Source: Diplocarpon mali
Lineage: Eukaryota; Ascomycota; Leotiomycetes; Helotiales; Drepanopezizaceae
Assembly (NCBI GenBank): GCA_024741835.1
Contig: JAENRP010000084.1
Coordinates: 1-64,000 of the forward strand
Direction: 5' to 3'
DNA length: 64,000 nucleotides
Under the pieces are notes generated by a model that saw only the letters and a program-made list of their open reading frames with translations, was not told the DNA's origin and did no database searches. Shown here piece after piece: positions 35,747 through 58,936 of this stretch (the stretch's first letter is position 1; each line of letters begins with the position of its first letter). Made by a program: the position numbers and the translations under genes.

Positions 35747-38700
35747 TCAGATCAGGTAAGCAACAGCCCCAGCTGCGAACGCAACCACGAGGCCGATGGT
35801 GCTCTTCGAGGAGCTGGCCGCGCCCGTGGCGTAGATTGGGAACTTGTTGGCCGTGGAGTTCGGCGGGGCGGACGCGGGGGCGGATGGGCTCGCTGGGCTT
35901 TCATATGGGTATGGTGCCGCGGGGTAGGATGGAGATTCTCCGCCTCCGTAGGGGTATGGTACCTTGGTGGCGTGAGGCTTTGGGATCACGGTCGCAGTCG
36001 TCCTGATGACTTCGCCTGGCTTGTGGATGGTAGTGGTGCTCTCTAGGGTGGAGGTGGAGGGTGGATACTCGTCACCTTCTGGGTAGGATGGAACAGCGCC
36101 GCCGTGGTTAGGATACTCACCACCTTGTGGGTAAGAGGGATAGTCGCCTCCTTCTGGGTAAGATGGGACAGCGCCGCCGTTGTTAGGAGACTCGCCCCCT
36201 TGTGGGTGAGAGGGGTACTTGTCTCCTTCTGGGTAAGATGGGACAGCGCCGCCGTTGTTAGGAGACTCGCCTCCTTGTGGGTGAGAGGGGTACTCGCCTC
36301 CTTCTGGGTGAGATGGGACAGCGCCGCCATTTTGGGGAGATTCACCACCTTGTGGGTAAGAGGGATATTTGTCTCCTTCTGGGTAAGTTGGGAATGCGGC
36401 TGGGCCAGCGGGTATCTTGGTGGGCTCGCTATCGGTGACTGGGCAAACCGTGGTAGAGATCTTGATGGTCTGCGTTGTAATGTGACCGAGCTTGGAAGTA
36501 CATTCGGGTACAGCTGGTGGGCATGAGGTGATCGTGTAGATGGCGGTCTTGTACACGGTGGAGGTTGTGTATTTGGTGACCGACACGCTGGGCACTGGGG
36601 TCACTGTTGGCTCTTCGACTGGGCAAACCGTAGTAGAGATCTTGATGGTCTGCGTTGTAACTTGACCGAGCTTGGAAGTACATTCGGGTACAGCTGGTGG
36701 GCATGAGGTGATCGTGTAGATGGCGGTCTTGTACACGGTCTTGGTTGTGTATTTGGTGACCGATACGCTTGGAGCTGGAGTAGTTGTTGGCTGTTTGCTA
36801 AGAGTCTCCATGGGATATTGCACGGCTGGAGTCGTTGTAACCGGGCAGACTGTCGTAGAAATTGCAATTGTCTTGGTCGTCACGCTTCCTAATGAGCAAT
36901 CCGGAACACTGGGGGGGCACCACGTGATTGTCTGGACATTGGTAGCGTAGACAGTAGACGTGGTGTACTTCTGGACCGGTGGATAAAATCCATATGGACA
37001 TGCTCCTCCTGTGCATTTTGACGGCGGAGGAGACATTGGGTACTTAGCGGCTGGCGGGTACGAGTTAAATGGGCACGCTCCTCCTGTGCATTGTGACGGC
37101 GGAGGAGACATTGGGTACTTAGCGGCTGGCGGGTACGAGTCAAATGGGCACGCTCCTCCTGTGCATTGTGACGGCGGAGGAGACATTGGGTACTTAGCAG
37201 CTGGCGGGTACGAGCCAAATGGGCACGCTCCTCCTGTGCATTGTGACGGCGGAGGAGACATTGGGTACTTAGCGACTGGCGGGGACGAGCCAAGTGGGCA
37301 TTCTCCTCCTGTGCATTTTGATGGTGGAGGAGACATTGGGTACTTAGCGACTGGCGGGGACGAGCCAAGTGGGCATTCTCCTCCTGTGCATTTTGATGGT
37401 GGAGGAGACATTGCGTACTTAACGACTGGCGGGGACGAGCCAAGCGGGCATTCTCGTCCTGTGCATTCTGACGGCGGAGCAGGAGACATGTCGTACTTGG
37501 CGGCTGGCGGGTACGAGCCAAGTGGACATTCTCCTCCTGAGCACCCGGGGGTTGAAATCCCAGTCGGCGCCATTCCGTAGCTGCGTGTTGGCCCGGCCGT
37601 GTTTGGAAGGCTGCTCGAGTTGGAAGCTTTTGCAACTGGATAATCGGACACATCGCTGGGGAGGGCTGGGCTTGGATTGCGGTAGATTCCAGTTGGATAG
37701 GCTGATGAGACGACCGGCCAGCTGGAGCCAGTAGGTAGCGCGTAGAACTTCGAATATGTTTCTCTAGTTGAATGGTGGGTAAAGCTCAGAAATGCTGATG
37801 CCGGCGCAGCATAGTACTGGCCACGATGCGTCTCGAAAGGATTCCTGCTCACAGCAATCTCTGTAGGTCTAGCATAGCCGTAGCTACTGACGCTGGGCAA
37901 GATGTCAGTTTGATTCTCGCCAGGCCGCGCGTCGCCGTATCAATGGTAACTGGTGCGAGAGACATACCTAGAGCGACTCGAAATTGGATGAGAGATATGC
38001 CCCGAGCTCCTGTGCGAGCCGTATGTGGCGGGATACCCAGAGCTGGGACTCGAAGCCTCGTATGTTGGCAATGCTGAAGTTGAGCTCTGGGAAGAGGATA
38101 CCGAGTTAGATGTTGGCTTCGCAGAAGGAGAGTAAACTTTGGTCGAGAGCGAGGAGGTTTCTGTTCGAATGGAGCCTACCGTGCTTGACCTCGTAACTGG
38201 CGGCGCAGGATTCAACAAGAGATGCTTGATGACCTGGAGATAGTCCATTTGGGGATAAGCGCTGTGGCGATTGTTTCTCGCTGCATGGGTGTTCTCCTAG
38301 AGGAAGAGCTCAGGGTCAGTACGACTACTTTGAGGGATGTTTCATAGCGTTGTGGTTAAATCAGAGCAGCAAGCATGACTTGAAAGGAGATTTATGTCTT
38401 GAGGCTCCGGAGGGGGAAAAAGAAGCCAGGGTAGACTCACCCAGATCATGACCCCACCAAACTGCTCTTCCCAATGATATTTTGCGAGGAGGGTCTTGAC
38501 TTCTCTGGGTTTGAGATAATCGTGCCCTGCTCCTCTTGCTGCTGCTTCAGGGGATCCCAGGAGACCAATGTGAAGCTTAGCCCCCTTGCTCTTCCCGGCG
38601 TTCACAAATCTTACCCACTGCTCGTAGTTAAAATGGCCAGTCTTGTCAATAAAATTTCGGGCAGTACATCCAAAATGCCGGTTGTTGTAGAACTGGATAA

Positions 38701-39524
38701 ACAACATATCAAACTTAGCCTCGCTGATTGTCCGACCCATGTTTTGCTCTGGGAGCGGGCATTGAGGCGAACCGGAGATCAAGTAGGTCTTGGAGTTGGG
38801 GTTGGCACGTTTGTGGGCGTCAAAGTGGGCACGCAGCCGGTTAATGGCGGCAATGTAGCCAGCTTGTCCGTCAGGCGACGGATTCTCGATGTCGAAGTCG
38901 AAGCCATCAACGTCGACTTTTCGGGTCAAATCCGTGCTGATAAATCCGCCGTCTAGGGGTCTGACCCCGCCGGCCTTAACCCACTCCTCGTCGTATGGCC
39001 CATATGCCTTCCACAGGAAATCGGCAAGGTGCTCCCCCTCGGCCTCTCCGTTCAAGTGGTAGTCTCCAAGTTGGCCACCGAGGGACAGGAGGATTTTCTT
39101 ATTCGTTTTAGTTTGACAGTAGTGGATATCATCTTGCAGAAACGGGCATCGCTTGTGCAGTCGATCGTGATCCGCGTTGTGATTACCGCCGTATCCAGGT
39201 CCTTTGTGGTAGCCATAGCTGGCCCAACATTGATTTCCGAAGTTCGCTCCCACCAGACCGTTTGCTTTGGATGGAAAGACGTTGATGAACGCGAGCGGGA
39301 TAATGTCGACGTCCGGACGGTCGCAGAGGTATTTCAAGCGTGATTGGTCAGAACCCTGACCCTATTTACCATCAGTATTTTCCCAGGGATATATACATCT
39401 GGATTGCCGGTCTTACATAGTACATAACGACGTTACTCCGTGAGCCCGCATCATATGCGGCCGAGGCCGAGGAGATTAGCGAGAGAGATGCGGCGGCGGC
39501 GGCAATAAATCGAGTCGAAAACAT
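35747..39524 (-). CDS. GH18 class III chitinase with long repeat tail and GPI-type signal
   Basis: Four exons, 39,524-39,417, 39,361-38,441, 38,296-37,968 and 37,892-35,747, with introns of 55, 144 and 75 bp, all GT-AG and in phase, give about 1,167 residues. A signal peptide (about 1-22) precedes a class III GH18 barrel (about 30-345) with the catalytic DGFDFDIE at 188-195, E195 being the proton donor. A Ser-rich linker follows, then eight 25-residue units with the core CTGGECPLGSxPPxAKY, three CPP-x-VP-x-C/TTVCPV modules, and Pro/Gly-rich PEGxxYPSxPQGG units. The end, SSSKSTIGLVVAFAAGAVAYLI in pattern, looks like a GPI-attachment signal. It should hydrolyse chitin at the wall or outer membrane face, as in wall remodelling and cell separation. 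The exon 2-3 junction (144-bp intron) is the least certain. Confidence 0.85.
36060..36395 (-). repeat. Intragenic 75-bp tandem array encoding Pro/Gly-rich units
   Basis: Within the last chitinase exon about four imperfect copies of a 75-bp unit are spaced exactly (for example GTTAGGAGACTCGCC at 36,182 and 36,257). They encode 25-residue units of the type GGAVPSYPEGDKYPSHPQGG. The period is a multiple of three, so copy-number change keeps the frame. Confidence 0.85.
36430..36800 (-). repeat. Intragenic 180-bp duplication in the chitinase tail
   Basis: Two nearly identical 180-bp units (starting near 36,441 and 36,621) encode the cysteine-containing modules YTT-x-TVYKTAIYTITSCPP and TTQTIKISTTVCP. 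A third, diverged module lies at about 36,830-36,985. The very high identity of the first two suggests a recent duplication or ongoing homogenisation. Confidence 0.8.
37005..37565 (-). repeat. Intragenic 75-bp tandem array encoding Cys/Pro-rich units
   Basis: About eight copies of a 75-bp unit (for example GTGCATT at 37,011 and 37,086) encode 25-residue units with two cysteines each (CTGGACP), a PP-x-AKY segment and PMSPPPS. Neighbouring copies are up to about 95 percent identical, while copies at the edges are more diverged, the usual pattern of unequal exchange. Because the period is divisible by three, long open frames also appear on the other strand and in another frame here; those are by-products. 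Confidence 0.9.
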
Positions 39525-46936: not shown

Positions 46937-47430
46937 TGTGATGTGCTGAAGAATGATGTGGAGCTGACGATGTGAGAGGTACCTGGTAGCTGGGGCGCTA
47001 AGATAAGGTTATATGTGCGATAAGCCTCAGCTCTCGGCTAGGGCCGAGACAAGAGACGCCTAGCGGGTAAACAAACTACTAATCCCACAAACGATCTCCC
47101 AGCGCGGATAAAAAAACGAATACTGCAAAAACTAATACGGAAAATTTTCCGCACGTCATTGTGTTGAGTGATTACGAATCACCTGCCTTGTAGACGAGGC
47201 AACAGACAAGCTTTCATCTTTGCAGTGGTCTGACGTGCCGATCTTCGTCGTATAGAGGGAAATCAAACAGAAATTACATGCTGATAGACTCTAATATTCC
47301 AATCAGTGAAGAGCAAAGGCTTTTTGATCCAACAAGAACTGAATCTTGAGCTCAAGCCCGACTACGCGGTTCAATAATCTTCGAGCCACAAATACAATTT
47401 TCTGAGGGATGGAACGGCAAAAAAGGTTCT
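46937..47430. other. Intergenic region between atg29 and the tRNA gene
   Basis: This stretch holds the promoter of atg29 and the 3' flank of the tRNA gene, including its T6 terminator (47,419-47,424). It is AT-leaning around 47,100-47,170. Nothing else is seen. Confidence 0.5.
47419..47424 (-). terminator. RNA polymerase III terminator of tRNA-Pro
   Basis: Six consecutive T on the minus strand begin seven bases after the tRNA discriminator base. This is the ordinary distance and form of a Pol III stop and supports the 3' end assigned to the tRNA gene. Confidence 0.8.
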
Positions 47431-47575
47431 GGGCGCATCCCGGGCTGATTGTTTGTCAGTCTAAGTAGTAGCTGATGATGGTCATTAGGAGTAGCTTACA
47501 TTGAACCGGGGACCTCTCGCAATCATTGATTAGAGTGAACCCTAAGCGAGAATCATACCGCTAGACCAATGCACC
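47431..47575 (-). tRNA. tRNA-Pro(AGG) with anticodon intron and a T-loop insert
   Basis: Reading the minus strand from 47,575: acceptor GGTGCAT, TG, D-arm with A-box GGTCTAGCGGTA, anticodon stem CTCGC, loop TTAGGG, an 18-nt intron, T, stem GCGAG, variable AGGTC, T-stem CCCGG, loop TTCAAT, then a 55-nt insert (47,499-47,445), then C, T-stem CCGGG, acceptor ATGCGCC and discriminator C. With both inserts removed every arm pairs fully (one G-T wobble in the acceptor), the anticodon is AGG, and the body is almost base for base the known fungal tRNA-Pro. The first intron sits after position 37, where eukaryotic tRNA introns belong. The second splits the B-box after GGTTCAAT. Whether the gene is transcribed and matured or is killed by the insert is unknown; the intact stems and terminator argue for function. 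Confidence 0.88.
47445..47499 (-). other. 55-nt spliceosomal-intron-like insert in the tRNA T-loop
   Basis: The insert begins GTAAGC, ends CAG, and has a CTGAC branch-like motif about 12 nt before the end. Its length equals that of the mRNA introns in this window (44-75 bp). Its borders are unique: no shift by one base in either direction keeps the T-loop at TTCAATC. It has no terminal repeats or flanking duplication. It lies between tRNA positions 59 and 60, where the tRNA splicing endonuclease is not known to cut in fungi. Confidence 0.85.
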
Positions 47576-48159
47576 TGAGTATGCCTCCGTTGGCAACTAA
47601 ACTATTTATAATTAAGTCTTTATCTAACTATGGCCTGGATCACTTGTGTATAAAATTTTGTACCGGGTGATCTGTTCATAGTATCTGGGTTTCGCTGGTG
47701 GGTATGGTAAAATGCAATCAGTCTTTATGACACAGGACACGTAAAAAGCGAATACACACGCCAAGGAGAGAGAGACTCGCACTTTCTTATCATTCATTTA
47801 GCTGTTTTCCACACGAAAGGTCAAGATACGTCCTCTGATCATAATGAAACATTTCACTTCCTTGGAGAAACCATGAATGCAAAATCTAATGTTTGCAAGT
47901 CGTGTAAGCCTTTTCAAGACAACAATAATATTCATATCTATCTGCGGACAAGCTTTATACGCCACATATACAGAAGACGGCTCGGCGAAACTTCGAGGCA
48001 GAAACACAACATGTGCTGAGATCTGAACGATCTAAAACATCCGAAGCAGTTCCGACGTCAAGACTCGGTATAGCATCTCATACATGGATTTCTTCCTAAT
48101 TAGGAGCACTGCGTGGAAAAGTCATGTAGAAGTAACATGGGTGCACGAGAGGCGTTGGA
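47576..48159. other. Intergenic region upstream of the tRNA gene
   Basis: AT-leaning sequence with no supported gene. A 69-codon frame on the minus strand (47,798-48,007) has no recognisable content. The left boundary of the MFS transcript probably lies near 48,100. Confidence 0.45.
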
Positions 48160-52669: not shown

Positions 52670-54725
52670 ATGGGAGATCCCAAACCACCCTGGCAGACAG
52701 AAGAGGACGAGGAGGAAGAGGATTACGACGAGAACGTAAGTCTCGCGAGACCACAGCAGAACTCTACTGAAATCCTCAGAACTATGTCTCCCAACATGAC
52801 GCCGTCCTCTTCGCCATCGAGGTCAGTCGCTCGATGACCACAGAGCCTCCCAAATCCGACGAGAAGAGGGCGGGAAAGGACAGTCCCGTCTTCGCAGCCC
52901 TCAAGTGTGCATACCAGATCATGACGCAGCGCATTATCTCCAGCCCGAAGGACATGATGGGCGTGCTGCTATTCGGCACTGAGAAGTCCAAGTTTCAGGA
53001 TGACGAGTCAAGTAGTCGGGGGACTATATCATACCCACACTGCTACCTGTTAAGTGACTTGTGCGTACCGTCTGCAGGAGATGTCAAGACCTTGCGGGGG
53101 GTTGCCAACAATGAGGAAGAAGCTGCCGAGTTGCTTGTTCCTTCTGAAGAGCCAGTCTCCATGTCGAACGTGCTATTCTGCGCCAACCAGGTCTTCACAA
53201 CCAGAGCCCCTACTTTCGGATCACGACGACTGTTCATCATCACTGATAGAGACGATCCACATTCCTCGGACAAAGCTGCTCGATCGCAGGCCACAGTCAG
53301 AGCTAAGGATTTGTATGATCTTGGTGTTGTAATTGAGCTTTTTCCCATCTCGCACCCTGATCAGGAATTCGATCGGTCAAGATTCTACGATGTACGTTGT
53401 AGGGGCCCCGGGTAGAGACGTAGCTAAGCTTGTAGGACATCATCTACCGAGACCCTGGGGAGGGAGAAGACCTGTGCGTTGCACGCCCCAACCTCAAGTC
53501 TTCTGGTGGAGGGATATCTCTGCTCTCCAACCTTCTATCAGATGTCAATTCGAAGCGGGTTGCGAAGAGGGCATTGTTCTCAGACCTTCCATTCGAGATA
53601 GGCCCAGATCTGACGATATCCGTCAAGGGTTACAATCTCCTGCAAAAGCAGCTCCCAGCACGATCATGCTATATCTACGAAAAAGGCGAACGCTTCGAGC
53701 TGGCGCACGGACAGTGCGAGAGAGTCACGGCCGACGCGAACCATCGAGTCACGAAGGGAGAGCTCCGCAAGGCATACAAGTTTGGTGGAAGCGAGGTCAT
53801 CTTTACTGCCGAGGAGCAGACGAAGCTGAGATTCTTCGAGTCTCCAGTTCTGCGCATCATCGGATTCAAACCACAATCTATGCTTCCGATTTGGGCATCG
53901 GTCCGGAAGGCCACCTTTATCTACCCTAGCGAGGATGGATACGTAGGCTCTACTCGGACCTTCGCGGCCCTGTGGAAGAAGCTTCTGAAAGACCGAATCT
54001 TGGGTCTGGCGTGGTTTATTGCAAGAGCAAACGCCACACCTCTCATCGTAGCCATTCTCCCATCTGCGGAGAGAGTCGACGGGACTACCGGTGCTCCGGT
54101 CGTCCCGCAAGGCCTGTGGCTGTACCCATTGCCCTTCGCGGATGACATCCGACGAACGCCCGACCTGCCCAGGCCTCTTTTAGCCCCCGACAACGTCGTC
54201 GACGAGATGAGAAGAGTCGTGCAACAATTGCAACTGCCCAAGGCTATCTACGACCCCACCAAGTACCCCAACCCCTACCTACAGGCCCACTACAAGTGGC
54301 TCCAGATCATGGCCTTGGATGACGAGGTCCCCGACGAGGGCGTGCCAGTAATCGACGACCAAACGATCCCCAAGTTCCGCCAGATCAACAAGAGGGCAGG
54401 TGAGTATATCAGCCAGTGGGGCCAAGTCTTGGACGAACAAACTCGCGCGTATCAAAAGGCCCAATACGGAGGCATCGACGGCGCAAGGCTGAAGCGTGCT
54501 AGCGACGACGACGGAGACGGGGCCCGTCACAAGCGAATTAAAATGGAGAAGGCTGGACTGGAGGGTATGAGCATGAACGAGCTGAAGAACATTGTTGGTT
54601 CCGGGGGGGTGGGCAGGTTTACGATCGCTGAGCTGAAGGGATTCTGTCATGCGAAAGGCCTGAGTCCGGTCGGGAAGAAGGCAGAGCTTGCGGAGAGGGT
54701 TGAGCAGTGGGTCGAGGAGAACTAG
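52670..54725 (+). CDS. ku70: Ku70, DNA end-binding subunit for non-homologous end joining
   Basis: Three exons, 52,670-52,735, 52,780-53,391 and 53,436-54,725, with two 44-bp introns in phase 0, give 655 residues. Ku70 pairs with Ku80 to form a ring that threads onto broken DNA ends and recruits ligase IV; it also acts at telomeres. Visible parts are an acidic N-terminus ([12 protein letters not shown]), a von Willebrand-A-like domain (about 30-235; [37 protein letters not shown]), the core barrel (about 255-480; [41 protein letters not shown]), a C-terminal arm, and a SAP DNA-binding domain (about 605-655; [20 protein letters not shown]). The length and order match filamentous-fungal Ku70. 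Confidence 0.96.
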
Positions 54726-57102: not shown

Positions 57103-58936
57103 ATGGGTCGTACCTTCAACACCACGTGCAATGCCACGCTGGAGGATATGCGCAGTAGGTTTCCTCCCCGCTGCGCGGGCCCACGGGACACGACACTGAC
57201 AACCACAGTCGGGGGCTCAGAGGAGTACATCGTGGGCCACCTAACCTTCCACACCCTGGGCCTGATCCTCGCCGCCGGGTGCGCTGCCATCGCCATCCTG
57301 CTCTCCTTCTACCTGATCTTCATGCACGCCGCTCATTACACCAAACCACACGAGCAGAGACAGTATGGCCTGGCTCCCCTCCTCCTCTTCCTCGGACCCC
57401 GAGACGTTGGCTGACATCCCCAGCATCATCCGCATCCTCTTCATGATCCCCGTCTACGCCACGGCCTCCTTCCTCTCCTTCTTCTACTACTGGCACGCCG
57501 TCTATTTCCAGGTGCTGTGCGACTGCTACGAAGCCTTCGCCATCGCCTCCTTCTTCGCCCTGCTGTGCCACTACATCGCCCCCGATCTGCACGAGCAGAA
57601 AATCTACTTCCGGAGCATCGAGCCCCGACCCTGGGTCTGGCCCGTCAGCTGGCTCAAGAGATGCTGCGGGGGGGAGAGGGGCCCGTGGAGGACCCCGAGG
57701 AGCGGCTTGACGTGGTTCAATATCATCTGGACGGGCGTGTACCACTACTGCTTCATCCGCGTGTCGATGACGTTCACCGCGGTCCTGACGCAGTACTTCG
57801 GCCGATACTGCGAATCGTCCAACTCGCCCGTGTTTGCGCACATCTGGATCCTGGTCATTGAGGGCGTGGCGGTGACCATTGCCATGTACTGCCTGATTCA
57901 GTTCTATGTCCAGCTCCGGGGCGACCTGGCGCCTCACCGCCCATTCCTCAAGGTCGTCGCCATCAAGCTGGTCATCTTCCTGTCGTTCTGGCAGTCGTTT
58001 ATGATCAGTATCCTCACTTCGGCAACCTTCCAGGTGATCTCCCCGAATTCCAAGATCGCCTACCCGGATCTGAAGGTCGGGCTGCCTTCTCTGTTGCTGT
58101 GCATCGAGATGGCTCTCTTTGCCGTCTTGCACCTGTTCGCGTTCTCGTGGACGCCGTACAGGAGAGCACCCGCCGGCTCGGACGATGCCGCGCCGCCGTT
58201 CGCGCACACGAGTGGACCGAACCACGGCGGCTTCCTCGGCTGCCGGGCTTTCGTCGACGCCATGAACCCTTGGGACCTGGTCAAGGCGTCCGCGCGAGGG
58301 ATGCGATGGCTCTTCGTCGGGGTCAGGCACCGCGAGAACGACGCGTCCTACAAATCCGCAACCGACATCAACAGCCCTCGACACGAGAACCTCAGTCTCC
58401 GATCCGCGAATGCCAGCGCCCCGAGCCTCCCAATCGCCGACGAGTTTCGCCGAAGCAGGTTCGGCTTGCCCGGCTTCGGAGGGAAGAAGCCGAGCGACGA
58501 AGGTGCGGGCCTCATAGCACACGCAGAGCCTCGGGGCCTCGGCTCAGGCTCCCCACGTTCCTACACCCCGTCTGGATACGTCCCGGCCAAGCATCGATAC
58601 GACGTCAACGGGCAGGAAATTAGTTTCGACGGCACCGTCTACCCTGCCCCAACCCCGATGGCGGGCGAGAGCCAAGAAATCGGCGTCGCCATCACCGGGC
58701 CGCCCGATCCGCAGCACAGCCAAGCCGCGCGCCCGTACGTACCTCGTCAGCCGTCGGAGGCGTACCGGGAGGGACTGCGGCAGGGGAGCCGGAGGCAGCT
58801 GACGCCGTCCCAACAGTGGGCGAACTCCAGCCAGCCTATCCCTGCATCCTCCCAGTCGGAAGTCCATGGTGCGCTGTGGGGACCGCAACCCCCCGCAGAC
58901 CAGTCTCCGCCCTCGCAGCGGCAGAATCATCCGTAG
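57103..58936 (+). CDS. DUF300/TMEM184 (OST-alpha family) seven-helix membrane protein
   Basis: Three exons, 57,103-57,154, 57,209-57,362 and 57,424-58,936, with introns of 54 and 61 bp in matching phases, give 572 residues. The N-terminus has two N-glycosylation sequons (FNTTC, CNAT). Hydrophobic segments follow, separated by the family's landmarks: HYTKPHEQRHIIRILFMIPVYA (across the second splice site), the DCYEAFAIASFFALLCHY box, LTWFNIIWTGVYHYCFIR, FGRYCESSNSP and KLVIFLSFWQSFMI. The last 250 or so residues are a Pro/Ser-rich cytosolic tail. Members are organic-solute-transporter-alpha relatives; yeast and plant relatives sit on the vacuole or other endomembranes. Transport in fungi is unproven. 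The long minus-strand frame over the same DNA (57,320-58,522) is a GC-driven mirror. Confidence 0.9.

Follow-up and report, generated by a model that had tools for sequence, protein, structure and literature searches.

How can a tRNA gene whose T-loop is split by what looks like an mRNA intron give rise to a tRNA, and is such a gene more than a damaged copy? The question is raised by a tRNA-Pro(AGG) gene on the minus strand (47,575-47,431) of a stretch of 64,000 nucleotides from the apple-blotch fungus Diplocarpon mali, a member of the Drepanopezizaceae in the Helotiales (the whole stretch is called the window here; we take D. mali, D. coronariae, and Marssonina coronariae to be synonyms), which carries an anticodon intron of 18 nt and a further insert of 55 nt in the T-loop. 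In the textbook division of labor, the spliceosome serves mRNA, and a protein endonuclease together with a ligase serves tRNA. The elements of the locus, from upstream to downstream, are the following.

47,605-47,610, minus strand: TATAAA, a putative TATA-like element about 35 nt 5' of the first tRNA base (only some other tRNA genes share it)
47,500-47,575, minus strand: 5' exon part of tRNA-Pro(AGG), comprising the acceptor 5' strand, D arm, anticodon arm (with the anticodon intron), variable loop, T-stem 5' strand, and T-loop up to position 59, assigned from the sequence and from ARAGORN on the joined form
47,522-47,539, minus strand: canonical anticodon intron of 18 nt at 37/38, without GT-AG ends (ARAGORN parse i(37,18))
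47,445-47,499, minus strand: mRNA-type intron of 55 nt at tRNA positions 59/60, GTAAGC...CTGAC...CAG, with unique borders
47,455-47,459, minus strand: branch-site motif CTGAC, its A at 47,456, 11 nt before the intron end
47,431-47,444, minus strand: 3' exon of tRNA-Pro(AGG), comprising T-loop position 60, the T-stem 3' strand, the acceptor 3' strand, and discriminator C, identical across four Pro genes
47,419-47,424, minus strand: T6 run resembling a Pol III terminator, 6 nt 3' of the tRNA

As the first-pass annotation of this DNA had claimed, a complete tRNA-Pro(AGG) cloverleaf appears only once the 55-nt segment is removed: ARAGORN found no tRNA in the uncut gene and tRNA-Pro(AGG) in the joined form, in which the acceptor stem pairs at 7/7 positions and the T-stem at 5/5 around the loop TTCAATC, against 1/5 for the T-stem before joining. 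The segment itself was also as described there, beginning with GTAAGC, containing CTGAC, and ending in CAG with no possible border shift, and the pairing of the stems outside it and the T6 run behind the gene were likewise reproduced. The neighboring reading frames are ATG29-like and an MFS transporter, and other genes of the window are given below.

38,342-39,337: glycosyl hydrolase family 18 protein
53,574-54,725: Ku70, a 100% match to Diplocarpon mali JHW43_005007
57,365-58,936: TMEM184-like (Ostalpha-domain) protein

A second gene of the window has 99% identity to a Marssonina coronariae protein. Three mRNA introns of the window, of 44, 44, and 54 nt, resemble the tRNA inserts described below, and the earlier remark that the 55-nt insert has the length of local mRNA introns agrees with this small sample; two of the three come from an exact spliced alignment of Ku70, and the one of the TMEM184-like gene (57,155-57,208) was placed by eye. 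An alternative intron of the latter gene (57,279-57,363), suggested by spliced alignment, was taken as an artefact of strain difference.

Is the insert a peculiarity of one gene? We searched the assembly (49.4 Mb, 676 contigs) by reading weak tRNA matches and B-box matches, several of which were then followed by genome searches, and saw 76 tRNA-like loci, consisting of 49 (one mitochondrial-like, one decayed) and 27 others (one decayed). This inventory is partial when set against the 136 tRNA genes that the report on strain NL1 gives as the tRNAscan-SE count (PMC7864672). GT-AG inserts outside the anticodon loop were present at 22 of the 76 loci, in genes for nine amino acids, at 13 combinations of family and site and on 21 contigs, distributed as follows.

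Pro(AGG): three of three genes interrupted, at 59/60
Pro(TGG): one of two interrupted (contig C210), at the same site as Pro(AGG); the gene on C87 is intact
Elongator Met: two of two interrupted, in the variable loop at about 46/47 (C234) and at 55/56 (the other gene)
Tyr: three of three interrupted (C36, C55, and C52), at 52/53
His: two of two interrupted, at 12/13, exon 1 being 12 nt long
Lys(TTT): one of one interrupted, at 8/9
Gly(GCC): four good copies interrupted, at 13/14 in C53, C71, and C407 and at 8/9 in C60, plus one decayed copy
Gly(CCC): one of one interrupted, at 9/10
Ser(TGA): one of one interrupted, at 9/10, with no anticodon intron in the ARAGORN parse
Ser(GCT): one of one interrupted, at 5/6 (C210:1918-2218, minus strand)
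Ala(AGC): one of three interrupted (C75), at 15/16
Asp: two of four interrupted (C92 and C160), at 64/65; the other two are intact

Pro(CGG) (C202) and all three Phe genes are intact. The insert of Ser(GCT) splits the acceptor stem itself, and the interrupted Pro(TGG) gene lies on the same contig, about 61 kb away. Both Asp inserts read GTAAGT..AG; in the C92 gene the anticodon region is altered as well, and one T-stem pair is mismatched. The decayed tRNA-Gly(GCC) copy (C2:258641-259025) has an altered 5' exon and B box, with GTAGGT..AATAG still visible, and is apparently a dead interrupted gene. The anticodon 3' half of both tRNA-His genes (loci L084 and L085), CCGTTTCA, is peculiar in that its pairing with TGACG is imperfect, which may reflect a nonstandard stem or one more insert.

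The first-pass annotation had proposed a comparison with the other tRNA-Pro genes of this genome and a search for further tRNA genes with T-loop inserts, and both were productive: the place of interruption is common to all three Pro(AGG) genes and one of the two Pro(TGG) genes, and 18 tRNA genes beyond these four are interrupted outside the anticodon loop. It had also left a choice between a Pol III transcript spliced by the spliceosome or another machinery, which our results support, and an intron-like insertion that had recently hit this one gene, which does not fit four Pro genes sharing a site and the same exons around unrelated insert interiors, nor the 18 other interrupted genes. A lone damaged copy was rejected on the same ground, the site being common to four Pro genes. 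Nor can an assembly error at 47,445-47,499, which the annotation had named as a way in which its claim could fall, explain unrelated inserts with common splice signals at 22 loci across 21 contigs; we found nothing in favor of an assembly or sequencing artefact and give it practically no weight.

The D-arm/anticodon stretch of the window gene, used as a pattern, was matched by three more genes without mismatch. The string GGTTCRANGTRNGY had 96 matches in the genome. Besides the four Pro genes these comprise 92 others, and among the 20 of them that were read none was a tRNA. In about two dozen of the 96, two of which were read, the exact string GGTTCGAGGTACGT occurs, which belongs to a dispersed repeat and not to a tRNA. 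Searched against GTDB contigs, the Pro 5' half matched a single contig, which looks eukaryotic and carries an uninterrupted Pro(TGG) gene, and among viral contigs it had no match.

Dedicated searches for intact copies covered Pro, elongator Met, Tyr, Lys(TTT), Gly(GCC), and His. Among the best candidates, which alone were scored, so that unseen intact copies are possible, the genes for six isoacceptors, namely Gly(GCC), elongator Met, Tyr, His, Lys(TTT), and Pro(AGG), were all interrupted; intact tRNA-Pro(AGG) genes elsewhere, which by the first-pass annotation would have helped to mark the window gene as a dead copy, were thus not found. The two other matches of the Lys(TTT) search are Lys(CTT) genes, and Gly(CCC) was not among the matches of the Gly(GCC) search. 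For Gly(CCC), Ser(TGA), and Ser(GCT), which stood outside the dedicated searches, one of one means the sole gene seen.

What kind of inserts are these? They measure 48 to 80 nt (median 51.5, n=22), and their borders, which were first picked by eye in the expectation of GT-AG ends, leave no choice in 11 inserts and allow two to four equivalent shifts in the remaining 11. All 22 have GT-AG ends. The 5' ends are GTAAGT-like, with A at position 3 in 19, G at position 5 in 21, and T at position 6 in 18, and conform to a GTRNGT-like consensus; the 3' ends are CAG in 13, TAG in 8, and AAG in 1. YTRAY with its A 9 to 14 nt before the end occurs in 20/22, whereas 5000 shuffles averaged 1.38 such inserts and never exceeded 7, and the two inserts that lack it are those of Tyr C52, which starts with GTCAGT, and Asp C92. 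GT and AG ends, a 5' consensus, a CTRAC-like branch site, and a host-like length together are the marks of U2-type spliceosomal introns.

These signals were sufficient to find most of the genes blindly. Every GTNNG...YTRAY...AG segment of about 40 to 90 nt was cut out, and ARAGORN was asked for a tRNA across the cut. On both strands of the 64-kb window, a single cut among 311 made a tRNA, and that cut was 47,445-47,499; among 596 cuts in 127 kb of 40 other loci, only the four Pro genes did so, the window gene among them. By class of locus, 16 of the 19 interrupted loci then known were recovered (four of the 16 also yielding a second tRNA-making cut), with 0/20 among controls and 0/15 among others, the decayed Gly copy included. 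Over all 128 loci examined (347 cuts), 19 of the 22 genes were recovered and Ala C75 (GTACT), Tyr C52, and Asp C92 were missed; the sole additional match was an edge match, at base 1 of an uninterrupted Ala gene that appears in the set twice, as L032 and as L107.

Insert positions span 5/6 to 64/65, and none of the 22 falls in the anticodon loop, the place of canonical introns at 37/38. Group I or II introns were rejected, as the window has no Rfam match at gathering scores and 48 to 80 nt is too short. Introner origin was rejected on genome queries holding six of the 22 introns, which matched tRNA loci only and revealed no repeats of an insert.

The tRNA splicing endonuclease might itself remove the inserts, as it does out-of-place introns of archaea, Cyanidioschyzon, and nucleomorphs. 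Most of the interrupted genes also bear anticodon introns that this enzyme must cut, and one review credits it, at least partly, with the D- and T-arm introns of those organisms (PMC4090602). It would, however, leave GT, the branch motif, and AG unexplained in nearly every insert, whereas GT-AG ends are absent from all of the anticodon introns that could be parsed, those of 17 among 18 interrupted genes examined (the 18th, Tyr C52, gave no parse). The strict central helix of an archaeal-type bulge-helix-bulge (BHB), in which intron nt 2-5 pair with 3' exon nt 2-5, is complete in 1/22, about chance level, so BHB introns were rejected and we consider endonuclease removal of the inserts very unlikely.

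Could the interrupted genes be pseudogenes, with intact copies elsewhere being the functional ones? In eukaryotic tRNA genes, inserts in the D or T arm usually affect one of many synonymous copies and are taken as marks of pseudogenes, with exceptions in nucleomorphs and C. merolae, according to a review (PMC4090602). D. mali does have intact Pro(TGG), Pro(CGG), Ala, and Asp genes, the Gly copy on C2 has decayed, and Tyr C52 and Asp C92 look weakened. Against this reading stand six isoacceptors without an intact copy in dedicated searches, and the state of the joined products. With the anticodon intron also removed, the joined exons are identical at 72/72 positions among the three Pro(AGG) genes (71/72 compared with Pro(TGG)), at 70/70 among the four Gly(GCC) genes, and at 71/71 between the two His genes, whereas intron interiors in 13 same-site comparisons are 42-55% alike, against 39-49% for shuffled sequences and within about two standard deviations of them, with flanks at 41-63%; for the Pro interiors the values are 50-55% and, shuffled, 45-49%. 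Conserved joined exons beside diverged introns form the pattern of selection on the joined product.

The folds point the same way. After joining, the acceptor stem pairs 7/7 in 21 of the 22 (the exception, Ala C75, pairs 6/7, as do its intact paralogues) and the T-stem 5/5 in 20. ARAGORN reported a tRNA in 20 of the 22 joined forms and the expected isotype in 19; joined Pro C190 was named Asp because ARAGORN places its anticodon intron otherwise. Tyr C52 and Asp C92, each with a T-stem mismatch and no ARAGORN tRNA on the joined form, may be decaying. Outside the anticodon intron, the joined C75 copy has the same sequence as its uninterrupted Ala(AGC) paralogues. The Gly(GCC) gene on C60 (cut at 8/9) is continuous where those on C53, C71, and C407 (cut at 13/14) are interrupted, and vice versa, and each of the two elongator Met genes is continuous at the other's cut site. 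With stems intact after joining in 20/22, the set, with the possible exceptions of Tyr C52 and Asp C92, does not have the character of tRNA pseudogenes, and we regard that explanation as extremely improbable.

Which polymerase makes the precursors? A run of at least four T lies within 60 nt downstream of 19 of the 22 genes, compared with 17% of random window 60-mers. The sole U6 snRNA gene above the cut-off (C67:136807-136959) holds a 51-nt intron of the same kind, GTGAGT..GCTAAT..CCAG, between AGCATGGC and CCCTGC, with borders placed by eye. Pol III normally transcribes U6. Since U6 bears such an intron here, some Pol III RNA, namely U6, is very probably spliced by the spliceosome in D. mali.

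The introns may instead be spliceosomal in precursors made by RNA polymerase II, alone or within longer transcripts. Pol II transcripts are the main substrates of the spliceosome, and several introns break the A or B box: the A box is broken by introns at 8/9 to 15/16, and the B box is cut or touched by those at 52/53, 55/56, and 59/60. Introns that break these boxes should hurt Pol III initiation unless they are tolerated. The T runs and the intron of U6, normally a Pol III product, argue against Pol II, which we think unlikely to be the polymerase in question. In Tyr C36 and C55 the final AG of the intron restores GG before TTCGA. An extra T-arm-like hairpin with the B-box consensus lies 13 to 29 nt downstream of all three Ala(AGC) genes (L106, L107, and L060) and both His genes found (L084 and L085), as a possible external B box; the remaining genes scanned lack such a hairpin apart from Pro(TGG) C210, where it is weaker and lies at +40.

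Taken together, we infer that the T-loop insert, like the inserts of at least 21 further tRNA genes, is very likely a U2-type spliceosomal intron in a Pol III precursor that would be processed by both the spliceosome and the tRNA endonuclease. The window gene would be transcribed by Pol III with two introns; the spliceosome would recognize the T-loop intron by its GU, its branch A, and its AG and take it out; the anticodon intron would fall to the tRNA endonuclease and ligase; and the joined RNA would fold into tRNA-Pro(AGG). The uninterrupted copies of Ala, Asp, and Pro(TGG) count against this explanation. As several isoacceptors have no uninterrupted gene among those found, translation would depend on the spliceosome. 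The tRNAs for Gly(GCC), elongator Met, Tyr, and His are indispensable, and their introns must therefore be removed, unless the genome has intact copies that escaped the searches or the assembly. Taken singly, Pro(AGG) would make a less compelling argument, since in yeast every proline codon can be decoded by Pro(UGG).

If so, the spliceosome of D. mali is probably an essential tRNA-processing enzyme, with pre-tRNAs for Gly(GCC), elongator Met, Tyr, His, Lys(UUU), and Pro(AGG) that come only with spliceosomal introns, with two unrelated splicing machines acting on one Pol III transcript of roughly 150 nt, and with intron gain at about thirteen places, internal promoter boxes included. Splicing of these transcripts would mean that the spliceosome can handle short, tightly folding Pol III RNAs, that one fungus has tied translation to mRNA splicing, and that standard tRNA finders miss such genes, as ARAGORN and Rfam did in the window. 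Three matters would also become testable: the competition between splicing and tRNA folding, the gain of introns by noncoding genes, and the working of Pol III when its A and B boxes are broken.

How does this compare with known systems? Our literature search, with most subscription journals outside its coverage, found no tRNA gene reported to have a spliceosomal intron. In a 2026 review, tRNA splicing is a process apart from the spliceosome (PMC13149111), and the tRNAscan-SE 2.0 paper states that eukaryotic tRNA genes have no more than one intron (PMC8450103). C. merolae and cryptophyte nucleomorphs share with D. mali tRNA introns in the D and T arms, sometimes more than one per gene (PMC4090602). 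In contrast to the introns of C. merolae, tied to BHB and the splicing endonuclease, and to those of Guillardia, of 3 to 24 nt, the D. mali inserts have 48 to 80 nt with GT, branch motif, and AG. Of 18 interrupted genes examined, 17 contain a canonical eukaryotic tRNA intron at 37/38 beside the other intron, from which it differs in position, length, and end signals. Introners would account for many intron gains, but the D. mali inserts had no other copies in six genome queries. Spliceosomal introns of fungal rRNA genes likewise have GT-AG ends in structural RNA genes, and the polymerase and the class of RNA differ. In Schizosaccharomyces pombe and other fungi, mRNA-type introns occur in U6 snRNA genes, and these, like the D. 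mali tRNA inserts, combine GT-AG ends and a branch site in a small RNA gene normally transcribed by Pol III; the difference is that in D. mali the hosts are tRNAs of nine amino acids, with 13 combinations of family and site, and that most of their precursors also need the tRNA endonuclease.
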